This document shows positions 3,984 through 21,880 of a stretch of DNA of 64,000 bases, in pieces. The DNA lies in contig NZ_JASCTH010000013.1 of assembly GCF_030009775.1 (NCBI RefSeq), positions 62,001 to 126,000 of the forward strand, read 5' to 3'. Source of the stretch: Actinoplanes sandaracinus. GTDB lineage: Bacteria > Actinomycetota > Actinomycetes > Mycobacteriales > Micromonosporaceae. Every line of letters begins with the position of its first letter. Within the stretch, counting starts at the first letter, position 1. Under the pieces are notes generated by a model. That model had not been told where the DNA came from. It was given only the letters and a program-made list of their open reading frames with translations, and made no database searches. The translations under genes and the position numbers were made by a program.

Positions 3984-4118
3984 GGCGGCAGGACCTCCGG
4001 CCGGGAGCATTCGACGTTTTCCAGATCGGTGCGCCCCGGTTGCGGCTGAGGGGTTTTCCGAGCCGGCGGAGCGCTGCGATTTCATCATGTGTTGAGTTAC
4101 GCCCTTCCGGCCCACGGG

Positions 4119-4156
4119 AAACTCATCTAGCGTTGATTTCAACACTCGATGAGTTT
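4119..4156. promoter_or_regulatory. Nested palindromic operator before the ABC exporter
   Basis: A 38-bp symmetric element: outer arms AAACTCATC and GATGAGTTT (perfect 9 bp), 4-bp spacers, then inner arms GTTGA and TCAAC around a TT centre. It ends 15 bp before the exporter start and next to its ribosome site. The TetR regulator encoded third in this operon is the likely ligand; this is an inference from position. Confidence 0.65.
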
Positions 4157-4171
4157 TTTGGAGGAGGAATC

Positions 4172-4891
4172 ATGGAGACCGCGATCGAGGTCCGGGACCT
4201 CGTCGTGAAACGCGGGCGGAGAACCGTCCTCGACGGGTTCTCCTGTGTCATCCCGCGCGGCAGCGTGACCGGCCTGCTCGGCCCGAGCGGCAGCGGCAAG
4301 ACCACGCTGATGCGCGCGATCGTGGGCGTGCAGGTCGTCGCGTCCGGAGAGGTGACCGTCCTCGGGCACCCGGCCGGATCGGCGCCGCTGCGCCGCAGCA
4401 TCGGTTACGTGACCCAGGCGCCCAGTGTCTACGCCGACCTCACCGTCGGGGAGAACGCCCGCTACTTCGCCTCGCTCCACCGTCTCGGCGCGGCCGAGGC
4501 GGAGGCGGCCGTCGACGCGGTCGGCCTGGCCTCGCACCGCGATCAACTGGTCGCCGACCTGTCCGGCGGGCAGCGCAGCCGGGCCTCGCTGGCCTGCGCG
4601 ATCGTCGGCCGCCCCGAGGTGCTGATCCTCGACGAGCCGACCGTCGGGCAGGACCCGGTGCTGCGCGACGAGTTGTGGGACCACTTCCGCCGGCTCGCCG
4701 CCGAGGGCGCCACGGTCCTGGTCTCCAGCCACGTGATGGACGAGGCCAACCGCTGCGACCGGCTGCTCCTGATCCGCGAGGGCGCGCTGATCGCCGACGA
4801 CACGCCCGCCGCGGTCAAGCGGGAAGCCGGGACCGACGATCTGGACCAGGCATTCCTTCGGCTGATCAGGCGTCAGGGGGTGGCGGCGTGA
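4172..4891 (+). CDS. ABC transporter ATP-binding protein (drug/multidrug export type)
   Basis: This 239-residue ATPase should energise the adjacent ABC-2 permease. Walker A is GPSGSGKTT (about residues 36-44), the Q-loop is in YVTQAP, the signature is LSGGQRSR, Walker B is VLILDEPTVGQDP, and the switch His follows in VSSHVMDEA. It belongs to the CcmA/NodI/DrrA-like group of ABC-2 ATPases. The ATG at 4172 has a strong GGAGGAGGA ribosome site; earlier in-frame codons would run through the operator. It is the first gene of a three-gene set (ATPase, permease, TetR). Export of a toxic compound is the usual role of such sets, but the substrate is unknown. Confidence 0.92.
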   Translation: METAIEVRDLVVKRGRRTVLDGFSCVIPRGSVTGLLGPSGSGKTTLMRAIVGVQVVASGEVTVLGHPAGSAPLRRSIGYVTQAPSVYADLTVGENARYFASLHRLGAAEAEAAVDAVGLASHRDQLVADLSGGQRSRASLACAIVGRPEVLILDEPTVGQDPVLRDELWDHFRRLAAEGATVLVSSHVMDEANRCDRLLLIREGALIADDTPAAVKREAGTDDLDQAFLRLIRRQGVAA

Positions 4892-4946
4892 CCGGGCGGA
4901 TCGAGCGCCGTGATCGCGGTCTCCACGGCGCAGAGGCAGGCGCGTC

Positions 4947-5675
4947 ATGATTCTCCTCAGCACCGTGCGGCGGATCCTCACTCAGCTGCGGCACGACCCG
5001 CGCACCATCGCGATGATCATCGTGGTGCCGACCCTGCTGATCACCCTGATCTACTTCATGTACGACGGACAGCCGGCCGTCTTCGACCGCATCGCCCTGA
5101 CCATGCTCGGCGTCTTCCCGTTCATCGTGATGTTCCTCATCACCAGCATCGCCATGCTGCGGGAGCGCACCACCGGCACCCTCGAGCGGCTGTTCACCAC
5201 CCCCGTCGGCAAACTCGACCTGCTCTTCGGTTACGGCATCGCGTTCGGGCTGGCGGCGGCGGCGCAGGCGGCGGTGGCGGCCGGTTTCGCGTACTGGGCG
5301 CTGGGCATGGACACCGCGGGCAGCATCGGGCTGGTGATCCTGATCGCCGTGGCCAACGCCGTCCTCGGGGTGGCCCTCGGCCTGCTGTGCAGCGCGTTCG
5401 CCCGCACCGAGTTCCAGGCGGTGCAGTTCATGCCGGTCGTGGCGGCGCCGCAGCTGCTGCTCTGCGGGCTGTTCGTGCCGCGCGAGGACATGGCCGGCTG
5501 GCTGCAGGCGATCAGCGGGGTGCTGCCGCTGTCCTACTCCGTGGAGGCGCTGACCGAGGTGGGTGCGCACGCGGAGGCTACCGGCATCATGTGGCGGGAC
5601 CTCACCGTCGTGGTGGGGGCGGTCGTGGTGGCGCTCATCCTGGGAGCGGTGACACTGCGCCGCAGGACTGCTTAG
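4947..5675 (+). CDS. ABC-2 type transporter permease
   Basis: This 242-residue membrane protein has six predicted transmembrane segments (about residues 22-40, 52-75, 100-125, 130-155, 160-185 and 218-238). The AMLRERTTGTLERLFTTP stretch is the conserved cytoplasmic coupling region of ABC-2 permeases. It follows the ATPase by 55 bp on the same strand and is almost certainly its partner. The first segment lies close to the N-terminus after MILLSTVRRILTQLRHDPRT, as is usual for the family. Confidence 0.9.
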   Translation: MILLSTVRRILTQLRHDPRTIAMIIVVPTLLITLIYFMYDGQPAVFDRIALTMLGVFPFIVMFLITSIAMLRERTTGTLERLFTTPVGKLDLLFGYGIAFGLAAAAQAAVAAGFAYWALGMDTAGSIGLVILIAVANAVLGVALGLLCSAFARTEFQAVQFMPVVAAPQLLLCGLFVPREDMAGWLQAISGVLPLSYSVEALTEVGAHAEATGIMWRDLTVVVGAVVVALILGAVTLRRRTA

Positions 5676-5701
5676 GGCGTACAGCAAAAGGGGTTTCATC
5701 G

Positions 5702-6313
5702 ATGGTGCGACGGACCGGACGCCGGCCCGGCAACCCGGACACGCGGGAGTCGATCCTGTCGGCCGCGCGCGGCGCGTTCGCTGAGAAGGGCTTCGACGGC
5801 GCGTCGATCCGGGCCATCGCGACCAGCGCCGGGGTCGACCCGGCGCTAGTGCACCACTACTTCGGCAGCAAGGACAAGCTGTTCCTGGCCTCGATGAACT
5901 CGCCGATCGACCCGGTCGACATCATCGTCGAGGCGACCGCGGGGGAGCGCGACGAGATCGGCGCCCGGTTCGTGCGCGCCTTCCTGCAGATGTGGGACGG
6001 CCCGCGTGGCTCGGCGGCGGTCGCGCTGCTGCGGTCGGTGGTCGGCACCGAGTGGACCGCCAAGCTGTTCCGCGAGTTCATCCTCACCCAGATCCTCCGC
6101 CGTGCCGTCCCCCGGCTGGACCTCGACCCGGCGGAGGCGCACCTGCGGGTCACGCTGGCCGGCAGCCACCTGGTCGGCCTCGCGCTGGCCCGCTATGTGA
6201 TCAAGGTGGAGCCGCTGGCCTCCGCGCCGCCGGAGACGCTGGTCGCCGCGATCGGCCCGACCCTCCAGCGGTACCTCACGGAAGAGCTGCCCGGTGTCTT
6301 CCCGCAGGTATGA
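5702..6313 (+). CDS. TetR-family transcriptional regulator
   Basis: This 203-residue regulator has the TetR N-terminal helix-turn-helix at about residues 15-60 (SILSAARGAFAEKGFDGASI, then the recognition helix PALVHHYFGSKDKLF). The C-terminal ligand domain is of the TetR_C_17-like type with a conserved WDGPRG motif. It is the third gene of the exporter operon, 26 bp after the permease, so it probably represses its own operon through the 38-bp palindrome at 4119-4156 and is released by the exported compound. Confidence 0.88.
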   Translation: MVRRTGRRPGNPDTRESILSAARGAFAEKGFDGASIRAIATSAGVDPALVHHYFGSKDKLFLASMNSPIDPVDIIVEATAGERDEIGARFVRAFLQMWDGPRGSAAVALLRSVVGTEWTAKLFREFILTQILRRAVPRLDLDPAEAHLRVTLAGSHLVGLALARYVIKVEPLASAPPETLVAAIGPTLQRYLTEELPGVFPQV

Positions 6314-9562: not shown

Positions 9563-9641
9563 CGTTAGTCGCTGCCGGGCCGCCGGGCAACCCCGCCGGA
9601 GTTCTCTTCAGTGTCGAAGGAGGCCGCCGATAGGTGGGGCC

Positions 9642-9824
9642 ATGACCATCAGCATCGGAACCTCGCACACACCGTCCTCGCGGGAGACGAACGCCGCGTG
9701 GCTGCTGCGGTTGCGGGAGGACTGTGACCGGCGCGCCGTCACGGTGGTGCGCGCCACGGGCGACGGCGAGCAGGAGGTCATCGCGGACCTGCTGAGCAGC
9801 CCGGCGGAATCAAGCGGCGGCTGA
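9642..9824 (+). CDS. Small hypothetical protein (60 aa)
   Basis: A 60-residue ORF beginning MTISIGTSHTPSSRETN and continuing with a basic helix (AAWLLRLREDCDRRA) and a short strand. Codon use matches the genome. No ribosome site at ideal distance is present, though AAGGAGG occurs about 20 bp upstream. No family is recognised. It sits alone between two leftward operons. Confidence 0.45.
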   Translation: MTISIGTSHTPSSRETNAAWLLRLREDCDRRAVTVVRATGDGEQEVIADLLSSPAESSGG

Positions 9825-9851
9825 GTTTCTCGCTCGCGACGCCGGCCGGGC

Positions 9852-10460
9852 TCAGTGCAGGACGGCCAGCGCCTCGGCGAGCGCGTCGGTGGCGTCCTTC
9901 ACGTCGACCTCGCGCATCCGCAGCGGGCCGCCCGTCTCGGTCAGCAGGGCGGCGTGCGCGCCACCGGCGTAGACCGGCGCGAACCCGATGTCCCGGATGA
10001 TCTGCGCGGTGGCCTCACGGGCGTCCCGCTGGTCGGTGCAGACGTATTCGGTGAGCAGCGGGTCGTGCCCGCGCCGCCGGCTCAGCACGTCGGTGGAGAC
10101 GGTGTTGAAGGCCTTCGCCCAGTGCGCCTCCGGCGCCCAGTCCATCAGGATCTCCAGGCCCGAGACGCTCTCCGGGACATCCGGGTTGGTGGCGTCGATC
10201 ACCACCTTGTCGGCGATCACGCCCCGGGTCATCTCCACCGCCTCGTGCGCGGACGACCAGTTCGGGCTGAAGATGATCACGTCGGCGAAGGCCGCCGCCT
10301 GCGGGATCGCCATCACCCGCAACGGCACGTCCTCGTGGTCCATCTGCTTGCGCAGCCGCTCCGGGTGGCGCGAGGTGACCGCGACGTCGTGCCCGCTCTC
10401 GGCGCACCACCGTGCCAGCGTCCCGCCGAGCTGACCCGCACCAATGACCCCGATCCGCAT
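9852..10460 (-). CDS. NAD(P)-binding reductase, NADPH:F420-reductase-like
   Basis: This 202-residue protein starts directly with a Rossmann dinucleotide-binding motif (MRIGVIGAGQLGGTLARW) followed by TSRHPERL, which recalls the phosphate-binding residues of NADP-specific enzymes. The body (VVIDATNPD, KAFNTVSTD) matches the F420-dependent NADP reductase/NAD(P)-binding family 2. It could reduce F420 or a small carbonyl compound; the exact reaction cannot be read. It lies 21 bp downstream of the TetR gene and is probably in its transcript. Confidence 0.82.
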   Translation of the reverse strand: MRIGVIGAGQLGGTLARWCAESGHDVAVTSRHPERLRKQMDHEDVPLRVMAIPQAAAFADVIIFSPNWSSAHEAVEMTRGVIADKVVIDATNPDVPESVSGLEILMDWAPEAHWAKAFNTVSTDVLSRRRGHDPLLTEYVCTDQRDAREATAQIIRDIGFAPVYAGGAHAALLTETGGPLRMREVDVKDATDALAEALAVLH

Positions 10461-10481
10461 GGCTCAAGGGTGCGCGCCGGA

Positions 10482-11099
10482 TCACCCGGCCGAGTGGGAA
10501 ACTCCGAAATCGCCGTACAGCATCCGCAGCTCCACCGTGACCAGGTCGCCGACCAGCTCCTCCGGGTCGCTCGCGCCGGCCAGGGCGGCGGTGCGCAGGT
10601 CGTCGATCAGCCCGGCCAGCACCCGTGGCGCCGGGCCGTCGGGGGCCAGGCCGGCCGCCCGGTCGCGCTCGATCCGGGCGGCGAGCCGGTCCACGTGGGC
10701 GGCCCGCATGCCGTCGCGCCACTGCGCCAGCGGCGGGCAGCCGGGCGCGGCGGCCAGCGCGCCGGCCAGCAGCCGGCCCTGGTCGCGCCAGAGCACGGCC
10801 AGGCTGGTCAGGGCCTGGCGCAGCGCGCCGGCGTCGGGGCCGGTGCCGTCCAGCCAGGGGCCGGCGTCGCGGCCGAGCTCACCGGTGATGCCGTGCAGCA
10901 GGGCGACCACCACGGCGATTTTGGAGTCGAAGTAGAAGTAGAAGCTGGACCGAGAGATCTCAGCACCGGCGGCGAGCTCGTCGATCGTGATGTCGGCGAG
11001 CGGCTTGCGGGCGAGCAGGACCCGGGCGGTCTCCAGGATCGCCTGTTCACGACGGTCGCCCTTGCTGGGACCGCGACGCCGGCCGGGAAGTGTGCTCAT
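10482..11099 (-). CDS. TetR-family transcriptional regulator
   Basis: This 205-residue regulator has a TetR DNA-binding domain with the recognition helix ISRSSFYFYFDSK, close to the EthR type. It is divergent from an oxidoreductase gene with 73 bp between the starts, and a palindrome lies in that gap. It probably represses the divergent gene and its own operon, which also holds the F420-reductase-like gene. The short distance and lack of a clear ribosome site hint at a short or absent leader. Confidence 0.87.
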   Translation of the reverse strand: MSTLPGRRRGPSKGDRREQAILETARVLLARKPLADITIDELAAGAEISRSSFYFYFDSKIAVVVALLHGITGELGRDAGPWLDGTGPDAGALRQALTSLAVLWRDQGRLLAGALAAAPGCPPLAQWRDGMRAAHVDRLAARIERDRAAGLAPDGPAPRVLAGLIDDLRTAALAGASDPEELVGDLVTVELRMLYGDFGVSHSAG

Positions 11100-12247: not shown

Positions 12248-12343
12248 AGCTCTAGCGATCGGACCGGATACGGAACGTATGGGTGGTCGCACTCGTCCGT
12301 ACGGGTGAGGTCACTGACGGAAAGCAGACACTAGCGTTCCCGT

Positions 12344-13912
12344 GTGGCGAATCGGTTCCAACTCTGGGGACAAGCGGGCTGGGCAAGCGCCGAAGTGGTC
12401 GGCGAGACGCACTACGCGAAAGCGATACGTGCGCTCTTCGGCAACGACTTCGACCCGCGCGGGACCGACATAACCGTACCCGTCCAGCTCATCCCCGACC
12501 GCAACAATCGGCACGACCGCAACGCCGTCGGCGTCTGGTCGGGAAACAGCCTGCTCGGCCACCTGCCACGGCCCGAGGCGGCGCGGTATGTCCAGGTTCT
12601 CACCACGCTCACCAGCCGTGACCTGATCCCCGAGGTCAGCGCCCGGATCACCGGCCGTGAGTGGGGCGCCGCCGACGGCCGTCCGGCCGCCTTCGACGGC
12701 TCCATCCGGCTCGACCTCGCCGAGCCGCACATGCTCGTCCCCGCCAACGCTCCTCCGTTCCAGGATCACCGCCTCCTGCCGTCCGGCTCGGCCGTGCAGG
12801 TCGTCGGCCAGCAGCAGTACCTCGAAGCGCTGATCCCGCTGCTGCGGCCGGAGGGGGAGTGCTGGGCGTACGTCACCCTGCACGAGATGGCCGACCACAT
12901 GGTCGAGGTGCGCCTCGGCGACGCCCGCGTCGGCGACCTCAGTCCCAAGATGAGCGGCGAGTTGCTCCCGACCCTGCGCCACCTGGCCGAGCAGGGCCTG
13001 GTGACCGCGGCCCGGGCCATCGTCCGGGGGGACAGCGGCAAGAGCGAGCTGATGCTCTACGTGGCCCGCGCCCAGGACCTGCCGGAGATCTGGCAGGGCG
13101 CGGCGAAGCGTCCGGCGGCCGGCCCGGCCGCGGGCCGCGGCGCGGCGAGCGTCCCGAGCTCCGGCGTGGCCGCCACGGGACCGGTCACGCCGGGCTCCCA
13201 CCCCGTTCCCGGTGCGGTCCCGGCCGCTCCCGCCTCGGCCGTCCCCGGCCTGAGCGGGTCCGGCGGCATGATGTCCGGTGGGCCGGCCGGAAGCGGCGGA
13301 CTGGTGCCGAACTGGGTCACCGCCGGCGAATCCCTGCCCAGCTGGGCCTCGCCGCCCTCGACGATGCCGGCGGTCGCGCCGCCGCCGGCCACGCCGCTCC
13401 CTCCCCGGTCGCCGGTCACGCCGGTCTCTCCGCCGCCGGTCACGCCGGTCTCCCCGCCGCCCGGACAGGGGATGGGGTGGGCCGCCGGCAGCGGTGCGAC
13501 GACCAGCATGTCCGCGTCCCGGTTCGAGCCGCCCGCCACCACGGTTGTCCCGCAGCGCGAGGGGCCGGGCCCGCTGGTCGCCGACCCGCCGGCCGCCGCC
13601 GCGCCGGTCAGTCCCGCGCCCGGTGACCGGAGCGGCTTCTCGATCGCCGAGACCACGGTCATCCCGGCGCTGGCCGCTGTGGTGAAGGCGCGCTCCGGGG
13701 CGACCGCCGGGAACTCGCCGGTCTCGCCGGCCCCGTCGGGCGCCGGGCCGCACGCCCCCATCCCGCCGGCGCCCACCGGCGTCAAGTTCGTGGTTCCGGC
13801 CGGGTGGCCGACCCCGCCGGCGGGCTGGTACCCGCCGGCCGGCTGGCGGCCCGACCCGGCGTGGCCGCAGGCTCCGGCCGGATGGCAGTGGTGGGTCCCG
13901 ACCTGGGACTGA
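12344..13912 (+). CDS. HIRAN-domain protein with proline-rich tail
   Basis: This 522-residue protein carries an N-terminal HIRAN domain (about residues 15-90: VVGETHYAKAIRALFG, then PVQLIPDRNNRHDRNAVGVW and LGHLPRPEAARY). HIRAN domains bind single-stranded 3' DNA ends at stalled forks or damage. A second region of about 100-255 may be a related fold (VVGQQQYLEAL and GDLSPKMSGELLPTL repeat the pattern). Residues 260-480 are a Pro/Ala/Ser-rich linker with repeated SPPPVTPVSPPP, and the C-terminus has Trp-Pro repeats (GWPTPPAGWYPPAGW). The start is GTG. It lies 154 bp before a giant helicase-nuclease gene on the same strand, so DNA repair or defence is the likely context. Confidence 0.8.
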   Translation: MANRFQLWGQAGWASAEVVGETHYAKAIRALFGNDFDPRGTDITVPVQLIPDRNNRHDRNAVGVWSGNSLLGHLPRPEAARYVQVLTTLTSRDLIPEVSARITGREWGAADGRPAAFDGSIRLDLAEPHMLVPANAPPFQDHRLLPSGSAVQVVGQQQYLEALIPLLRPEGECWAYVTLHEMADHMVEVRLGDARVGDLSPKMSGELLPTLRHLAEQGLVTAARAIVRGDSGKSELMLYVARAQDLPEIWQGAAKRPAAGPAAGRGAASVPSSGVAATGPVTPGSHPVPGAVPAAPASAVPGLSGSGGMMSGGPAGSGGLVPNWVTAGESLPSWASPPSTMPAVAPPPATPLPPRSPVTPVSPPPVTPVSPPPGQGMGWAAGSGATTSMSASRFEPPATTVVPQREGPGPLVADPPAAAAPVSPAPGDRSGFSIAETTVIPALAAVVKARSGATAGNSPVSPAPSGAGPHAPIPPAPTGVKFVVPAGWPTPPAGWYPPAGWRPDPAWPQAPAGWQWWVPTWD

Positions 13913-13943
13913 CACGTTCCCGCGCAGACTGCCGCGGCTCGGT

Positions 13944-13985
13944 AATCCGCCCGAACGGGCCTTCAGGGACTCATTCGGGCGGATT
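13944..13985. repeat. 12-bp inverted repeat between HIRAN and helicase genes
   Basis: AATCCGCCCGAA and TTCGGGCGGATT are perfect complements with an 18-nt spacer. The element is 31 bp after the HIRAN stop and 81 bp before the helicase start. It could be a terminator without a T-tract or a regulator site. A related GGGCGGATatg sequence follows directly. Confidence 0.6.
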
Positions 13986-14066
13986 CGCTGGCTTTCCTGG
14001 GCGGATATGTCGGATTAACCCGGAAAAACGGCACGGCGACCCACCTCGCCTTGCTGGAATGGGCGC

Positions 14067-17000
14067 ATGCGGTGGGATGATGCTGACGGGTTGACCGGGC
14101 GGCCGGACGCACGCGTCCGCGGAGTGCTCGAATCCTGGCGTGCCGGTCTGCTCGACCTCACCGCCTCCAACCCGCTCATCCACGTGGATCCGTGGGGGCC
14201 CGGCGTGGTGACGATCGACAACCCGTCGCCGCGCAGCGTCCTGGAGGCGCTGCAACAGGGCCGGGACTGCGGGTTCCTCGGCGTCGAGGAACAGGCCGAG
14301 GGCCCACGCCCGCGCACCACGAGCGCGTTCCAGACGCACATGACCGACGCCGAGATGGATGCCACGCTGCGGGCCCTGCGCCGCACCGACCACCGCGACC
14401 AGCTCGAGTACGGCATCTCCGCGCTCTACCTGGCGGTCGGCACACTGCACTGGGACGACGGCGAGCACGAGTACGCCAGCCCGATCCTGCTGCTGCCGGT
14501 CGACCTGGTCGACTCCGACCCACTCGACTACCCGCGGCTGCGCGCCCGGCCCGACGACCCGCTGGTCAACCCGGCCCTCTCGGTGCGTCTCAAGCAGCAC
14601 GGCGTCGAACTGCCCGCGGTGGAGAGTCTGACCGGCCTGGACGTCACCGTCTTCTGGGCGCGGCTGGACGCCGCGATCGGCGAGCACACCGAGTGGCGCA
14701 CCGACGAGGCGATCCTGCTGTCCCGGTTCACCGTGCACCGCGAGGTCGTCTACCACGATCTGGTCGACAACGAGCGGCAGATCCTCGCCCATCCGGTGGT
14801 CCGGGCCCTGGCCACCGAGGCCCGGTCCCAGATCGACGCGTTCAAGTTCGAGCCGGTCCCGGCCCGCCGCATCGACGACGTGGCCTCGCCGGACGACATC
14901 CCGCTGGTCCTGGACGCCGACGCGGGCCAGCGGGCGTGCGTGGCGGCCGCGCTGGCCGGGCGCAGTTTCGTGATGCGCGGCGCGCCCGGCACCGGCAAGT
15001 CACAGACCGTCGCCAACATGATCGCCGCCCTGATCTTCACCGGGAAGCGGGTGCTGCTGGTCTCCGAGAAGGCGGCGTCGCTGGACGTGGTCAAGGACCG
15101 CCTCGCCCAGGCCGGACTCGACGACTACCTGCTCGAACTGCACAGCGACTCGACGGGGCGGGACCACGTGGCGGCCACCCTCGCGGCCGCCCTGGACTTC
15201 ATCCCGCTGCCACCGCCGGGCCTGTCCACGGACGAACGGCAGGAGCTGCGCGAGCACCGGGAACGGCTCAACGCGTACGCCGAGGCGATGAACGAGGTGC
15301 GCGAGCCACTCGGCCACCGCCTCCACGACGTGCTCGGCATGTGCGCCCAGATGACCGACGTGCCGGCCGCGCCGGTGCCGTCGGTCCTGCCGGTCCCGCT
15401 CACCACCCAGTCCCTGCAGAAGGTGCGCGACGCCGCCGAGCGCCTCGGCCGGGCCTGGCGCCCGGCGGTGCGCGGCGACGACTTCCTGTGGCGCGACGTC
15501 GTCGACCGCAACCACCTCGACGCACGCCTGCAGCAGGCCCGGACCGCCCTGGAACACCTCGCCGAGGCGGCCTCCACCGACCCGCTCGCCGCCGCGTTCC
15601 GCACCCGCCACCTGGCCGACGCGATCGCGCTGACCACGCTCATCGGGCACGCGTCCCGCCGCCCGCCGGAGGCCGCCGACGAGTGGCTCACCCTGGACAG
15701 CCTGGAACCGGTGGCCCGCGCCGCCGAGGGCCTGCTGCGTCACCTCAAGGCGTTGCACCACGCCGAGGAGGCGGTCCGGAGCCGGGCCGGCGTCAGCTGG
15801 TCGGCACTGCCCACCCCGGCGAAACTGCCGACCGTGCCCAGCCTGGCGCACCTCGACCCGCCGCCGGTCGAGCTGCTGCCGCTCACCGCCGCGCAGGCCC
15901 GCGGCCTGGCCCGCCGGTTCGCCGACGAGTCCGACCGGCTCGAACAGCACCAGCACAGCCTGGACCGGGTCACCGCCCGGCTGGGCCTGCCGAACGTGGT
16001 GGCGTTCTCCGACCTCGGCCGGGTCTCCTCCGTCGTCGACCTGCTGACGCGGCCGGACAAGCCGGAGGCGGCCTGGTTCGACTCCGCCGGGATGACCGCC
16101 GCGCACACCGCCTCCCGGGTGCTCCAGCGGGCCGTCGACGTGGTGAAGACCGCCGAGGCGAAGGCGCGTGAGCACTTCAACGACGCGGCGCTGTCCCACC
16201 CGGTGGACGAGCTGGCCGAGCGGTTCGCCACGGTCCACAAGGGGCTGCGCAAGCTGCGGGCGCCGTACCGGCGGGACAAGAAGGAGGCCGCCGAGATCGC
16301 TCGGCCGGACGTGAAGCGCAAGCAGGCGGTGGCCAACCTCGCCGCCGCCGCCAACTGGAAGAAGGCGCTGGAGGAACTGGACCAGGCCGAGCGCCAGTAC
16401 GCGCGGATCCTAGGTCGCCACTGGCAGCGCCTCGACACCGACTTCGAGGCCATCCGCAACGCCCTCAGCACCGCCGAGGAGGTGATGCGGGTGACGCCGC
16501 CGGAGGCTCTGCCCGCCGTCATCGAACGGGTCAGCGCGGCCACCCCGAACAGCGCGATCATCCGGATCGTCTCCGAGGCCCGCAAGGAGTTCGACCGCTG
16601 GACCATGGCGCTGCGGCCCGCGCCCGAACCGGCGCCGCGTCCCCAGTTGGCGGCCGGCCCGATCCACGACGCGGTCACCTGGCTGCGGGCGCACGTCGAA
16701 CCGCTCACCGCGACGGGCGACCTGACCCATGCCTACAGCGTGGCCGCTGGACGGGACTTCACCCTCGCCGAGTCGGCCGCGATCGGCCTGCTCCGGGAGA
16801 GCGCGGCCGACGCCGCCTCGGCCCTGGCGGCCAACGCCGGCGAGTACGCCAAGGTGCTCGGCGACGCCTACCGTGGCAACCAGACCGACGTGGAGGCGCT
16901 GGCCACCGCGATGGCCTGGACCTCGGAGGCCCGCCGCATCCGGGTCGGCGTCGACACCGCCCTCACCGCCGAACAGGTCGAGGCGCTGCGCCGGTCCCGC

Positions 17001-20000
17001 CCCACCGACACCCTGCCCGCCCGGGTGGCGGAGTGGCAGGCCGCCCGGGACTGGATCCTGCGCGCCTTCGCACCCCGCCGGCACGCCTCGCTGGCCACGG
17101 CCCTCGACGACTTCGAGCACGCCGGTGAGCTGATCCAGGCGCTGCTGGAGGACGCCGGGGGCCAGCAGGAGTGGTTCGAGTACCAGGCGGCCCGCGGCGT
17201 CCTCGCCGAGCACGGGCTGGACGCCGTGGTCGACTTCTGCGCCCGCGAGGACCTGCCGGTCGAACAGATCCTGCCGGTGCTCGGCCGGGCCCTCTTCCAG
17301 TCCTGGGCGGACACCGTGATCCGCGAGGACAACCGGCTCCCACCGCTCGACGCGGCGGCCCGGGACCGGCTGGTCAGCGAGTTCCGGCTCTGGGACGCCC
17401 GGCTCCAGCGGGCCGCGGCCGCCGACGTGATGAACGCCGTCGACGAGATGCAGCCCACCGGCACCGCCGCCGCCGAGGCCGCTCTGCTCCGGGCGTCCGC
17501 CGCCCAGCAGGGCCGGCGCCTGCCGGTGCAGGATCTGATCAGCCAGACCCGGCACGCCACCCTCGCGGTCAAGCCGTGCTTCCTGACCGTGCCCGCCGAC
17601 GTCAGCCGGCTCGTCCCGGCCGACCTCACCTTCGACGTCGTGATCATCGACGAGGCGTCCCGGGTCCCGATCGCGGACGCGATCACCTGTGTCTACCGTG
17701 GCGCCTCGTTCGTGGTGGTCGGCGACGACCGGCAGCTCACCGCCCTGCCGACACCCGGCGACGAGCGGTCCATCCTGGATCTGGCGATCAGCTGCGAGGC
17801 TTTCCCGGTCCTCGACCTGAGCACCCATTACCGCAGCCGGCACGAGTCCCTGATCGCCTTCGCCAACCACACCTTCTACCAGGGCCGGCTCAGCACCTTC
17901 CCGCCCGTGGGACCGGCCGGGCCGGACGCCGGGGTGCAGCTCTTCCCGTCCGCCCCCGAACACGGTGACGCCGGGCTCGCCGAACTGGTCGCCGGGCGGG
18001 TCGCTCACCACTTCGTCACCCGCCCCGACCTCAGCCTCGGCGTGATCGCCAGCACGCCGGACCTGGCCGGGCGGATCGAGGCGGCGGTCGCCGACATGGT
18101 GGTGCCACCGGAGGACGACCGGCTGCGCGGGTTCTTCGTCAAGGACCTGGAGACCGTGCAGGGCGACGAACGCGACGTGGTGCTGCTGGCCATCGGTGAG
18201 AACCTCGGCGGGCTGGTCGGGCCGGACGGCTGGCGGCGGCTCAACGTCGCCACCACCCGGGCCAGCCGCCGGATCGAGGTCATCTCGACGGTTCGCGGCC
18301 AGGATCTGCCGGAGACCGACGAACTGCGCCCGCTCGCCGGCTATCTCGACTACGCGACCCGCGGCGAGGCCGCCCTCGCCCTGGACGACCCGGGGCCCGA
18401 CGTGCAGACCCCGTTCGAGGACTCGGTCCGCGACGTCATCCGGTCCTGGGGCTACCGGGTGCGTACCCGGGTCGGCACCGGCGCCTTCCGGATCGACCTG
18501 GCGGTGCGCCGCTCGGCCCGGCGCAACGCGCCGTACGCCCTCGGCATCGAGTGCGACGGCACCACCTACGACTCGGCGCCGGCCGCCCGCGACCGGGACC
18601 GGCTGCGCGAACAGGTGCTGGAGAGCCTCGGCTGGAAGCTGCACCGGATCTGGGGCACCGCCTGGTACCTCGACCGCGAGCACGAGGAGCAGCGGCTGCG
18701 CGCCGCGCTCGAGGAGGTGTTCGCCGGCTTCCCGCCGGAGGAGCGGGCCGCCGCGCTGGACGGCTCCGCGGTTCCCGCGGCGCCGACCGCCGCGCCCGAG
18801 ACGATCGAGGAGCGCGAGCCGGTCACCCTCGTCCCGACCCATGCGGGGTACGCGGCCGCGGAGCCGACCGAGATCGCGGAGCACCTCGAGGACCCGGGGT
18901 ACGCCGAGGTTCCGGAACCCGCCGAGGCCATGGAGCCGGAGTACGCCGAGGATCCGCGGTACGCCGAGCCCGAGCCCGTCGAGACCGCCCAGCTCGTGGC
19001 GGACGCCGAGGTCGTCGAGGACGCGCAGATCGTGGCGGACGCCGAGGTCGTCGAGACCGTGGAAGCGGAGGACGCCGGTGACGGGTTCGCCGCCGAGGTC
19101 GACGAGTTCGCCCCGGTCGACGGGCTCGGCGATCCCGAGGACGAGGCGGTTCTCGACGAGGAGCAGACCGACGCCTACCTGGCCGGAGTCGCCGACATGG
19201 AAGGGCATGTCGCCGAACGGTGGAGCGAGGTCCCGCAGGAGTGGACCGAGGAGTACCGCTCGGGCGTACCCCATGAGGTCGATCGTGAAGAGGCGGCGCC
19301 GGCCGCCGCCGGGATGCCGCCGCTCGCGCCGGAGGAGGCCGACGGCGACTCGCGGGTTCGGCCGGCGGTCTTCGAGCGGATCTCCCGGGCCGAGGACGAG
19401 GAGCGGCCGCGGGTCGCGCCGGCGGTCTTCGAAACGGTGAGCCGGGCCGAGTTCGCCGTGGAGGACGAGGGGCCGCGGGTCGCGCCCGCGGTGTTCGAGA
19501 GGGTGAGCCGCGACGGCGGGCCGGCCAGGCAGTTCAGTGAGCCGCAGGTCCGCCGGCCCACCTTCGAGCACCTGAGCAGGGCGGATGTGGCCCGGGCCGA
19601 GGCGGAGCGGGCGGAGGCGGCCCGGATCGAGGCCGCGCGGGCCGCGGACGCCGCGACCGCGGAGGCGGCCCGCGCCGCCGTCGCCCGTGTCGAGGCGGCC
19701 CATGCGGCCGAGGCGGCGCTGGCCGACGCGGCCCTCGTCGAGGCGGTCACCCACGCCGAACCGGGGTCCGCCGAAGGGCTGCCGCTGGCCGAGCCGGTGT
19801 TCGTGTCCCCGGACTTCACCATCGCGGAGTCCTCGCCGGCCCCGCGCCGGAGCACCCGGGCGAAGCCCGTCAAGACCGCGCCGGCGAGGAAGGCCGCACC
19901 GGTCAAGGCGGCCGAGGTCCACGCCGGACACGGTCCGGAGGAGTGGGCGCAGCCGTACCGGAAGGCCAAGCTCGCCGCGCTCCCGGCCGGGGCGACCGTC

Positions 20001-20582
20001 ACCGACCCGGAGAGCGCCAAGCGGATCGCGGAGGCGGTCCGCCGGATCGCCGCGGTGGAGGGACCGGTGCACATCAGCATCGCCCTGCAGCGGATGCGCG
20101 AGGGCTGGGGGCTCACCCGGATCACCAAGCAGGCCCGTGACGCCATCGACGCCGTGATCGAAGGGCAGGCCGCGAAGGGCGACGTGACCTGGGCGGACGA
20201 GTTCCTCGGCGACCCCGGCCAACTGGTGCCGACGGTCCGTCTCCGCGCCGACGGGGTGGCCCGCAAGGCCGACCAGATCGCCGACGCCGAACTGCGGGTC
20301 GCGCTGGAGCACCTGGTGCTCGATGCCGGGGCGATCGAGGTGGACGGGCTGCTCGCCGCGACCGGGCGGTTGTACGGCTGGGCCGCCCGGCGCTCCCCCG
20401 AACTGGACGCCCGGCTCACCGCCCTGGCCACTGAACTGGTCGCCGAGGGCCGGCTGACCCGGCGGGCGGACGGGCTCAGCGCCGCGCACGACCTGCCCGA
20501 CCCGCTCTCGCTGCCACGTCACGAGGCGACCCGGGCGCCGGCCAAGGCGGCGAGCGCGGCGAGGCGCAAGGCGCGAACCTGA
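14067..20582 (+). CDS. DUF4011 superfamily I helicase with C-terminal PD-(D/E)XK nuclease and DUF3320
   Basis: This 2171-residue protein combines an N-terminal DUF4011 domain (about 15-220), a UPF1-like SF1 helicase core, a nuclease and a DUF3320 domain. Walker A is GAPGTGKSQT (about 306), Walker B VVIIDEASRV (about 1190), motif III VVVGDDRQLT (about 1217), and later motifs include STHYRSRHESL (1252), VQGDERDVVLLAIG (1364) and LNVATTRASRRIEV (1392). A long helical insert separates the first motifs (about 470-1100). A MTES_1575/Vsr-like nuclease follows (about 1446-1540) with FRIDLAV and GIECDG as active-site elements. Residues about 1545-1950 are an acidic Glu/Ala-rich linker with four APAVFERVSRAE-type repeats, and DUF3320 lies near 1965-2030. 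All helicase motifs look intact. Family members occur in defence and DNA-repair contexts; the function here is unproven. Confidence 0.9.
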   Translation: MRWDDADGLTGRPDARVRGVLESWRAGLLDLTASNPLIHVDPWGPGVVTIDNPSPRSVLEALQQGRDCGFLGVEEQAEGPRPRTTSAFQTHMTDAEMDATLRALRRTDHRDQLEYGISALYLAVGTLHWDDGEHEYASPILLLPVDLVDSDPLDYPRLRARPDDPLVNPALSVRLKQHGVELPAVESLTGLDVTVFWARLDAAIGEHTEWRTDEAILLSRFTVHREVVYHDLVDNERQILAHPVVRALATEARSQIDAFKFEPVPARRIDDVASPDDIPLVLDADAGQRACVAAALAGRSFVMRGAPGTGKSQTVANMIAALIFTGKRVLLVSEKAASLDVVKDRLAQAGLDDYLLELHSDSTGRDHVAATLAAALDFIPLPPPGLSTDERQELREHRERLNAYAEAMNEVREPLGHRLHDVLGMCAQMTDVPAAPVPSVLPVPLTTQSLQKVRDAAERLGRAWRPAVRGDDFLWRDVVDRNHLDARLQQARTALEHLAEAASTDPLAAAFRTRHLADAIALTTLIGHASRRPPEAADEWLTLDSLEPVARAAEGLLRHLKALHHAEEAVRSRAGVSWSALPTPAKLPTVPSLAHLDPPPVELLPLTAAQARGLARRFADESDRLEQHQHSLDRVTARLGLPNVVAFSDLGRVSSVVDLLTRPDKPEAAWFDSAGMTAAHTASRVLQRAVDVVKTAEAKAREHFNDAALSHPVDELAERFATVHKGLRKLRAPYRRDKKEAAEIARPDVKRKQAVANLAAAANWKKALEELDQAERQYARILGRHWQRLDTDFEAIRNALSTAEEVMRVTPPEALPAVIERVSAATPNSAIIRIVSEARKEFDRWTMALRPAPEPAPRPQLAAGPIHDAVTWLRAHVEPLTATGDLTHAYSVAAGRDFTLAESAAIGLLRESAADAASALAANAGEYAKVLGDAYRGNQTDVEALATAMAWTSEARRIRVGVDTALTAEQVEALRRSRPTDTLPARVAEWQAARDWILRAFAPRRHASLATALDDFEHAGELIQALLEDAGGQQEWFEYQAARGVLAEHGLDAVVDFCAREDLPVEQILPVLGRALFQSWADTVIREDNRLPPLDAAARDRLVSEFRLWDARLQRAAAADVMNAVDEMQPTGTAAAEAALLRASAAQQGRRLPVQDLISQTRHATLAVKPCFLTVPADVSRLVPADLTFDVVIIDEASRVPIADAITCVYRGASFVVVGDDRQLTALPTPGDERSILDLAISCEAFPVLDLSTHYRSRHESLIAFANHTFYQGRLSTFPPVGPAGPDAGVQLFPSAPEHGDAGLAELVAGRVAHHFVTRPDLSLGVIASTPDLAGRIEAAVADMVVPPEDDRLRGFFVKDLETVQGDERDVVLLAIGENLGGLVGPDGWRRLNVATTRASRRIEVISTVRGQDLPETDELRPLAGYLDYATRGEAALALDDPGPDVQTPFEDSVRDVIRSWGYRVRTRVGTGAFRIDLAVRRSARRNAPYALGIECDGTTYDSAPAARDRDRLREQVLESLGWKLHRIWGTAWYLDREHEEQRLRAALEEVFAGFPPEERAAALDGSAVPAAPTAAPETIEEREPVTLVPTHAGYAAAEPTEIAEHLEDPGYAEVPEPAEAMEPEYAEDPRYAEPEPVETAQLVADAEVVEDAQIVADAEVVETVEAEDAGDGFAAEVDEFAPVDGLGDPEDEAVLDEEQTDAYLAGVADMEGHVAERWSEVPQEWTEEYRSGVPHEVDREEAAPAAAGMPPLAPEEADGDSRVRPAVFERISRAEDEERPRVAPAVFETVSRAEFAVEDEGPRVAPAVFERVSRDGGPARQFSEPQVRRPTFEHLSRADVARAEAERAEAARIEAARAADAATAEAARAAVARVEAAHAAEAALADAALVEAVTHAEPGSAEGLPLAEPVFVSPDFTIAESSPAPRRSTRAKPVKTAPARKAAPVKAAEVHAGHGPEEWAQPYRKAKLAALPAGATVTDPESAKRIAEAVRRIAAVEGPVHISIALQRMREGWGLTRITKQARDAIDAVIEGQAAKGDVTWADEFLGDPGQLVPTVRLRADGVARKADQIADAELRVALEHLVLDAGAIEVDGLLAATGRLYGWAARRSPELDARLTALATELVAEGRLTRRADGLSAAHDLPDPLSLPRHEATRAPAKAASAARRKART

Positions 20583-20622: not shown

Positions 20623-20677
20623 GGACGCCACCGTGTCGTCGGCCCCGGTTCATCCGTGTTCCCTAAGGTGCGGCCAC

Positions 20678-21880
20678 ATGCGAAAGATCGTCTACAGCGG
20701 ATCGCTGGCGCTGGTCCTCACCCTGACGCTGGCCGGCGCGGCCCGGGCCGGCGGCCACGCCCACGTCACCACGCCGACCCTGACCGCGTTCGCCTCCCTT
20801 CCGGCCGCCACCTTCGTGCCCGGCAGCGAGCCGTCCGGGAGCCTCGTCACCGGCAACACCAACGGGTTCCCGGTGCCCTTCGCCGACCAGCCGGTCCAGG
20901 GCTTCTCCGGTATCGCGAACAACGGCGACGGCAGCTTCGACGTGCTCTCCGACAACGGGTACGGCAACCAGGCCAACTCGGCCGACTTCCTGCTGCGCGT
21001 CCAGCGGCTCGCGCCCGCGAAGGCCGGCGGCACCGTGGACGTCGTCGGCGGCCTCAACCTGACCGACCCGGCCGGCCACGTGCCGTGGAGGCTGACCCGC
21101 GACGACCGGGCCCTGACCGGCGCCGACTTCGACGTCGAGTCGATCGTCAAGGCCGACGACGGCACCTATTGGATCGGCGACGAGTTCGGGCCGTACCTGC
21201 TGCACTTCGACCGAGCCGGGCGTCTGCTCGCCGCGCCCGTCCCGCTCGACAAAGTGACCGCCCCGGAGACCGCCGCCCGCACCGGCGCCACCGCCACCCT
21301 GGGCGGCAGCAAGGGCTTCGAGGGCCTCGCCGAGTCGCCCGACGGCCGGTACCTCTACGCGCTGCTGGAAGGCTCGGTCGCCGGTGACACCGCCGGGGAC
21401 CTGCGGCTCAACGAGTTCGACACCCGCAGCGGCAGGTACACCGGCAAGACGTACGTCTACCGGCTCGGCGCCGCCGGCCTGGCCATCGGCGACGCCATCG
21501 CGATCGACGGGAACCGCTTCCTGATCATCGAGCGGGACGGCGGCCAGGGCGCCACGGCCGTCGTCAAGCGCCTCTACATCGCCGACAAGCGCGACCGCGA
21601 CCACGACGGCCTGCTCGACAAGACCCTGCTCGTCGATCTGATGAACATCGCCAACCCGCGCCGTCTCGGCGGCTTCGGCACCACGTTCACCTTCCCGTTC
21701 CAGACCATCGAGGACGTCGTCATCCTCGATGACAAGACGGTCGCGGTGCTGAACGACAACAACTTCCCGTTCTCCAGCGGCCGCACCGCCGGAGTCGCCG
21801 ACAACAATGAGTGGATCACTATTGCGCTGCCGGCGTCGCTGCACCCCGACAAGCGCATCTTTCCAGCTCAGGGCCGGTAG
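20678..21880 (+). CDS. Secreted phytase-like esterase-domain protein
   Basis: This 400-residue protein has a signal peptide (MRKIVYSGSLALVLTLTLAG, cleavage after an Ala-rich ARAGG region) and a beta-propeller domain of the esterase-like phytase family (PF13449). Recognisable parts are GFSGI near residue 85, DNGYGNQANSADFLLR, DFDVESIV, WIGDEFGPYLLHFD and GFEGLAESPDGRYLYALLEG. Such secreted proteins are thought to act on phosphate esters, but activity is rarely shown. The ATG at 20678 was chosen because the signal peptide begins there. It is followed about 80 bp later by a membrane protein and a phosphate-binding-like lipoprotein, which is consistent with a phosphate theme. Confidence 0.85.
   Translation: MRKIVYSGSLALVLTLTLAGAARAGGHAHVTTPTLTAFASLPAATFVPGSEPSGSLVTGNTNGFPVPFADQPVQGFSGIANNGDGSFDVLSDNGYGNQANSADFLLRVQRLAPAKAGGTVDVVGGLNLTDPAGHVPWRLTRDDRALTGADFDVESIVKADDGTYWIGDEFGPYLLHFDRAGRLLAAPVPLDKVTAPETAARTGATATLGGSKGFEGLAESPDGRYLYALLEGSVAGDTAGDLRLNEFDTRSGRYTGKTYVYRLGAAGLAIGDAIAIDGNRFLIIERDGGQGATAVVKRLYIADKRDRDHDGLLDKTLLVDLMNIANPRRLGGFGTTFTFPFQTIEDVVILDDKTVAVLNDNNFPFSSGRTAGVADNNEWITIALPASLHPDKRIFPAQGR

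Follow-up and report, generated by a model that had tools for sequence, protein, structure and literature searches.

The described class closest to the locus reported here is PDC-S37 of PADLOC, which has the status of a phage-defence candidate only; from its naming we take it to be a single-gene class, and a literature search on the name PDC-S37 found no paper. Prokaryotic HIRAN domains are called uncharacterized in a 2024 paper (PMC11090510), and putative antitoxins that go with kinases of the HipA family are among the proteins with HIRAN domains (PMC8262856). A pair made up of a HIRAN gene and a DUF4011-helicase gene is not named in any title or abstract opening among the papers listed by our literature searches. 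Such a pair is present in a 64-kb stretch of the 10.19-Mb genome of Actinoplanes sandaracinus (G000:C6:62001-126000, the whole of which is called the window below), where a HIRAN-protein gene is separated by a 154-bp gap from a gene on the same strand that encodes a 2171-residue helicase-nuclease. A reading of the sequence alone had proposed that these two neighbours form a unit that senses and cuts unusual DNA, and both open reading frames (ORFs) are found where it had placed them, on the plus strand (Table 1). Our own preferred reading, held with somewhat better than even confidence, is that the large protein is a vertically inherited, single-protein helicase-nuclease of the DUF4011/PDC-S37 kind which lies beside a separate HIRAN gene, the two having become adjacent once in a clade ancestor and being separately controlled. 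The observations behind it are domain content, motif integrity, a distribution in a single clade and separate conserved upstream elements.

The helicase-nuclease

The large protein was compared with the products of 15 helicase loci from Actinoplanes records, found by a short-peptide-pattern scan that favours close relatives; with the window these make 16 loci. Its proposed composition of DUF4011, superfamily 1 (SF1) helicase, MTES_1575-type nuclease and DUF3320 was borne out, since DUF4011, AAA_11, AAA_12, MTES_1575 and DUF3320 all score above their Pfam cut-offs and the motifs that characterize SF1 helicases (Walker A, DE box, GDxxQ, QGxE and TRA) are all intact. Across the 15 orthologues these motifs show just two departures, both in L020. 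The D...E-x-D-G residues of the nuclease, D1477 and E1495, which would be catalytic as in the Vsr and PD-(D/E)xK families, are kept in 16/16 HIRAN-adjacent copies, and where 10 of 11 relatives of other genera have a nuclease histidine these copies have aspartate (8/8 copies in the tree set described below, 16/16 in the loci). Mean identity between the window protein and its orthologues, taken per 60-residue block, is 72-89% over residues 1-1560, 17-28% over residues 1561-1920 and 61-71% over residues 1981-2160. The protein matches the PADLOC PDC-S37 profile with 894 bits (E 6e-269) and stays below the cut-offs of the NCBIfam models ProA (NF058533, 819 bits against 1500) and Hhe (NF042953, 545 against 2000); its PDB matches at E<=0.01 are seven sequences of Smubp-2, DNA2 and Sen1. 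It is, by its sequence, a DUF4011-type helicase-nuclease of a candidate anti-phage kind with a putative role in defence. The SF1 motor would move along nucleic acid and the Vsr-like nuclease would nick or cut, while the C-terminal DUF3320 domain, assigned to the winged helix-turn-helix (wHTH) fold in PMC3710099, and the long flexible linker may help to position the protein.

The HIRAN protein

The upstream protein had been read as a HIRAN protein with a long Pro-rich tail, and this too stands. In a single-sequence Pfam search PF08797 (HIRAN) covers residues 42-86 with 23.6 bits, slightly under the gathering score of 24.7. A profile built from 14 relatives finds six PDB sequences at E<=1, namely five that come from the HIRAN domain of human HLTF, and lp_0118, which is uncharacterized according to the PDB; a narrower profile of the 16 Actinoplanes sequences found no HIRAN, just a single hit at E 0.97 that looks like chance. 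The predicted structure, made from 16 closely related rows, is of low confidence (mean pLDDT 51.8), and the top 17 Foldseek matches consist of 13 HLTF HIRAN chains and four of lp_0118, at low TM-scores (0.19-0.25 by query). The strand and helix order predicted in the same low-confidence model for residues 14-125 repeats in residues 156-242, and the protein is probably built, on this model, of two HIRAN folds in tandem. The loop residues N55 and D58 are invariant in 14/14 relatives; the corresponding N and D of HLTF would serve the binding of 3' DNA ends, a role for which literature searches gave no paper.

The tail, with 50 prolines within residues 256-480, varies between loci, and the whole protein measures 507-1098 amino acids (aa) over the 16 Actinoplanes loci; at L010, which carries a run of N, protein length and intergenic gap are uncertain. 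The Trp/Pro module that ends the protein is also seen at the C-terminus of HIRAN relatives from other genera. The idea that the module is widespread in this genome was rejected, other matches being weak only (E 0.069 or worse). PADLOC gives the HIRAN protein a chance-level match only (PDC-M03B, E 0.083). The gene product would be a separate protein, probably one that binds DNA ends, in which a flexible tail and the Trp/Pro module follow two HIRAN folds.

Distribution and adjacency

Both genes were searched for in 150 genomes of the family (G000, the genome of the window, included) and in 396 genomes of the phylum; the 15 loci and the eight pair-positive genomes described here overlap, several copies looking identical, and their counts are not additive. 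In the family set the HIRAN query matches in 18 genomes, 14 strongly (>200 bits) and four weakly (28-33 bits), and the helicase at E<=1e-60 matches in 15, nine of them above 1000 bits. Eight of the 15 Actinoplanes genomes (again with G000) have both genes, seven have neither and none has one alone, the helicase matches in the seven negatives being short and weak or absent. Where the pair occurs the genes are always adjacent: by coordinates they are direct neighbours, with their order unchanged, in all eight positive genomes, and HIRAN directly precedes the helicase in 15/15 Actinoplanes loci. The sequence-only reading had named rare adjacency elsewhere as a sign against its pairing, and the adjacency found is constant within one Actinoplanes clade. 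In an rpoB DNA tree the eight positive genomes split from the seven negatives and three outgroups with a support of 1.000, and because they form a single clade their co-occurrence counts as one gain or loss. The long-kept adjacency is partly explained by a conserved upstream neighbourhood, in which an alcohol dehydrogenase (ADH) gene is present in 15/15 and a TetR gene in 14/15 Actinoplanes loci. The two genes would appear to have become neighbours once, in the ancestor of that clade, and to have been retained there, each under its own control, in a stretch of chromosome that is conserved.

Outside this clade each family occurs without the other. HIRAN relatives in G012, G050, G072 and G077 (291-302 bits) and in G038 and G064 (218 and 207 bits) have no close helicase in their genomes; a distant relative of the helicase (205 bits) is present elsewhere in G064, and the other five genomes have matches below 50 bits or none. 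Even in Actinoplanes, G137, G143 and G076 have another member of the HIRAN family that is not next to the helicase. Across the phylum set the HIRAN profile (E<=1e-12) finds G000, G246 and G372, the helicase (E<=1e-150) finds G000, G159, G188 and G384, and the two sets share G000 only; helicase relatives without this HIRAN family are those of G060 in addition to G159, G188 and G384. No pair of the HIRAN family and the helicase was found outside the Actinoplanes clade among the family and phylum genomes sampled. The occurrence of HIRAN genes with unrelated partners had been named as a second sign against the pairing, and it was observed: the family members in other genera have unrelated neighbours, and a shared partner outside Actinoplanes, looked for in stretches of up to 20 kb, was discarded, none being common to those compared.

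We note that in G012 and G077, which represent two genera, a gene for a UvrA-like protein (L072:3634-6144 and L074:1-3156, the family name being taken from the sequence start and not from a family scan) is no more than ~5 kb away from that of the HIRAN family, cases too few to count. In two Actinoplanes genomes a second HIRAN-family gene (L077:9056-10246 and L078:~9590-10609) lies near a very long gene, called with a length of at least 3029 aa in one and 2655 aa in the other and possibly like a non-ribosomal peptide synthetase or polyketide synthase; several flanking genes are common to both loci. An empty site in the pair-negative Actinoplanes genomes was also sought and given up. The nearest ADH is just 61-65% identical in six of the seven and absent from G130 (E<=1e-60), and the window TetR homologue was not found in the short stretches around those ADH genes, so that no orthologous empty site can be named.

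The upstream elements

The gap between the two genes ranges from 81 to 1030 bp over the 16 loci, in none of which does it hold an ORF of at least 40 aa with coding-like codon use. Each gene has a conserved element of its own. Right 5' of the HIRAN GTG, CGGAAAGCAGACACTARCGTT is present in 16/16 loci, and the pattern of this element, searched with up to three mismatches in six genomes, occurs once per genome, exact and before the HIRAN gene. Before the helicase, GTCGGRTTAACCCG-n-n-AAA begins exactly 58 nt ahead of the ATG in 16/16 loci, whatever the gap; its pattern, searched with up to two mismatches, precedes the helicase in all six genomes (exact in five, with one mismatch in G143), and the sole extra site in the six is one with two mismatches in G000. 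Reversed control patterns of both elements had no site in the same six genomes. For comparison, invariant runs in the coding alignment of the helicase core reach 12 nt at most, and 62/451 fourfold columns there are invariant. TARCGT shortly before the HIRAN GTG suggests the -10 of a transcript that is possibly leaderless, no consensus sigma-70 promoter being called, and the two elements would be promoters or operators. These separate elements, together with HIRAN genes that lack a close helicase and helicases that lack HIRAN, speak for two independent genes that stand side by side.

An operon proposed on spacing alone was set aside as unproven, given gaps of up to 1030 bp and a helicase with its own conserved upstream element. 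Neither a consensus sigma-70 promoter nor a terminator was called between the genes. The perfect inverted repeat in the gap of the window (Table 1) was not seen at the same place in the 15 other loci, and no terminator-like site was called. An Rfam search gave a single match at E 0.81, far below the gathering score, which is taken as chance. We also note three or more inverted repeats, perfect over 15-18 bp, in the 1030-bp gap of Actinoplanes sp. DH11 (L009:6971-8000). By eye, both elements contain CGGAAA and, further on, CAC; no resemblance is claimed from this.

Paralogues of the helicase

At least three helicase copies are present in each of the eight pair-positive genomes, and a tree of 1547 core columns places them in three clades inside the Actinoplanes group, the HIRAN-adjacent clade lying beside clade B with a split support of 0.998. 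The position of E1495 is glutamate in 8/8 HIRAN-adjacent copies, R, L, V or Q in 8/8 copies of clade B, which also deviates at D1477 in 7/8, and R in 7/7 copies of clade C on the tree as well as in an eighth, L168, put in that clade by motifs alone. The two further fixed paralogues, both old, are thus without the nuclease glutamate in 16/16 copies (eight of each clade), and both residues are kept in 11/11 aligned helicase relatives from other genera. The HIRAN-adjacent copy is the only one of the three fixed copies with the glutamate; it is not always the sole such copy of a whole genome, since a fourth type, represented by three copies (in G140, G143 and G146), keeps D and E. Walker A is intact in both paralogue copies checked, and in both paralogues of the window genome the nuclease domain is still recognised by Pfam (89.5 and 93.1 bits) and PDC-S37 matches with 853 and 1044 bits. 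Examples of the paralogues are L116:1676-7021 and L119:8901-13820, with relatives in seven further genomes.

Neighbouring genes and features of the window

Around the pair, Pfam names a TetR regulator, an NADP oxidoreductase, an F420-type oxidoreductase, a phytase-like protein, a solute-binding protein, an MCP-PilZ chemotaxis protein and sugar-uptake and arabinose genes. Nearness to known defence genes had been put forward as something to look for, and the neighbours examined turned out to be metabolic, chemotaxis and transport genes. A PADLOC scan of part of the window matched none of seven other proteins at 1e-5 (0/7), and with Pfam naming ordinary genes no other defence gene was found among the neighbours scanned. 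Among the 15 loci only L015 (A. palleronii) has a gene between ADH and HIRAN (652 aa, 4014-5972). The phytase-like gene 3' of the helicase (window 20633-21880) was not found in 8/15 Actinoplanes loci and is a remnant in L012, where just a 47-residue piece matches. Large antisense ORFs such as that at 16410-20522 on the minus strand are taken to be artefacts of high GC content.

Table 1. Coordinates in the window of the two genes, their domains and the elements between and before them
Feature	Position	Strand	Basis or remark
Conserved element directly 5' of the HIRAN start (GACGGAAAGCAGACACTARCGTT)	12316..12338	+	one site per genome, 6/6 genomes
HIRAN-protein gene	12344..13912	+	GTG start, 522 aa
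First HIRAN domain, residues ~14-125, N55 and D58 kept	12383..12718	+	Pfam, alignment, profile, model, Foldseek
Putative second HIRAN-like repeat, residues ~156-242, without N-x-x-D-x-N-A loop	12809..13069	+	low-confidence model and alignment
Pro/Ala/Gly-rich tail, variable length	13109..13783	+	sequence, 16 Actinoplanes loci
C-terminal Trp/Pro module, 42 aa	13784..13909	+	conserved in relatives
12-bp perfect inverted repeat, 18-nt loop, between the genes	13944..13985	+	sequence
Conserved element before the helicase (GTCGGATTAACCCGGAAAA here)	14009..14027	+	16/16 loci
DUF4011/SF1 helicase/MTES_1575 nuclease/DUF3320 protein gene	14067..20582	+	ATG start, 2171 aa
DUF4011 domain, residues 28-175	14148..14591	+	Pfam, 80.9 bits
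Helicase part with Walker A (GAPGTGKSQT, residues 305-314)	14919..15110	+	Pfam, motif check
Helicase motifs II to VI, residues 1191-1407	17637..18287	+	Pfam, motif check
MTES_1575 (Vsr-like) nuclease, residues 1450-1548, D1477 and E1495 kept	18414..18710	+	Pfam, 114.8 bits; alignment
Ala/Glu-rich, poorly conserved linker, residues ~1561-1925	18747..19841	+	alignment
DUF3320 (wHTH) domain, residues 1980-2022	20004..20132	+	Pfam

Alternative explanations

The two genes might instead encode one DNA-end-processing unit, in which the tandem HIRAN protein would capture 3' single-stranded ends and, by way of the long tether and the Trp/Pro module, pass them on for the helicase-nuclease to unwind and cut; the unit would act against phage DNA or in repair. 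Adjacency in 15/15 loci and 8/8 sampled genomes, the absence of an intervening coding-like ORF from 16/16 loci, the invariant loop N55 and D58 in 14/14 relatives and the nuclease glutamate that only the HIRAN-adjacent one of three fixed paralogues has all agree with such a unit. They have to be set against its occurrence in a single clade, against six other genomes of the 150 with the HIRAN family and no close helicase, and against separate conserved upstream elements across a variable gap; no HIRAN-helicase fusion was noticed among the hits looked at, no search having been aimed at fusions. We therefore consider the unit a tentative possibility, well short of an even chance. Of the proposed sense-and-cut pair, then, the membership of the large protein in a candidate anti-phage family survives, and the paired unit, seen in one clade and with separate elements, is not established. 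Several points nevertheless weigh against our preferred reading of two separately controlled neighbours. The gap is free of coding-like ORFs in 16/16 loci, yet the neighbours on either side vary (the gene in L015 and the absence of the phytase-like gene), and a HIRAN-helicase junction left undisturbed could reflect selection for adjacency. A shared function is compatible with two private upstream elements, and the sole nuclease glutamate among three fixed paralogues could mean that the HIRAN protein works with that nuclease.

A different question is what the large protein acts on, and it is quite possible, if not quite an even chance, that it is a genome-maintenance enzyme of stalled forks or damaged DNA and not an anti-phage protein, which is compatible with either model of the pairing. 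That it is fixed in its clade with conserved upstream flanks, that its neighbours serve metabolism, chemotaxis and transport, and that all eight genomes hold two further copies, with Walker A intact in the two checked, all fit maintenance; against it stand the relatives of its family catalogued as phage defence or as candidates for it, and the 7/15 Actinoplanes genomes that have no close copy and so can dispense with it. The HIRAN protein could also regulate or limit the helicase-nuclease in the manner of an antitoxin instead of feeding it substrate, an idea that draws on the putative HipA-kinase antitoxins with HIRAN domains (PMC8262856) and on an adjacency kept in front of a nuclease that could do harm. 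Other DUF4011 helicases whose nuclease residues are intact occur without this HIRAN family, for instance in G060, G159 and G188, and the genes show neither the overlap nor the tight spacing of toxin-antitoxin pairs, so that we find regulation of this sort very improbable. Somewhat less improbable, and still doubtful, is a clade-fixed surveillance of DNA ends in Actinoplanes, in which a tethered tandem-HIRAN sensor would serve the sole nuclease-competent fixed DUF4011 paralogue, with the other two acting in that pathway as nuclease-dead motors or regulators. If the pair works together, a bacterial HIRAN protein would gain a defined helicase-nuclease partner. Even without pairing, the locus offers a testable case of a candidate defence protein whose gene is now fixed in the chromosome of one clade and was triplicated there, nuclease residues being lost from two of the three fixed copies.

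Comparison with known systems

The HIRAN protein shares the loop N and D with HLTF; unlike that of HLTF its HIRAN domain is not fused to a helicase, and it has two HIRAN-like halves, a long Pro-rich tail and a Trp/Pro C-terminus. MTES_1575 of Microbacterium testaceum, a Vsr-like restriction endonuclease, has the nuclease and DUF3320 in common with the large protein, and is itself listed with HEPN and transglutaminase domains (PMC3710099), neither of which Pfam reports here. The core defence hotspot 1 of P. aeruginosa is flanked by a conserved DUF4011 gene that is likewise a fixed chromosomal one; as described in PMC10250203 that gene borders a defence hotspot, whereas the neighbours scanned here include no other defence gene. 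The anti-phage proteins ProA and Hhe belong to the same overall family as the large protein, which is not a member of either by the curated cut-offs. With PDC-S37, the PADLOC candidate, it shares the DUF4011-helicase-nuclease core; it differs in a linker of ~350 aa, rich in Ala and Glu, before DUF3320, in its separate HIRAN neighbour and in its conserved chromosomal place. The large protein is a further member of this known candidate-defence kind.

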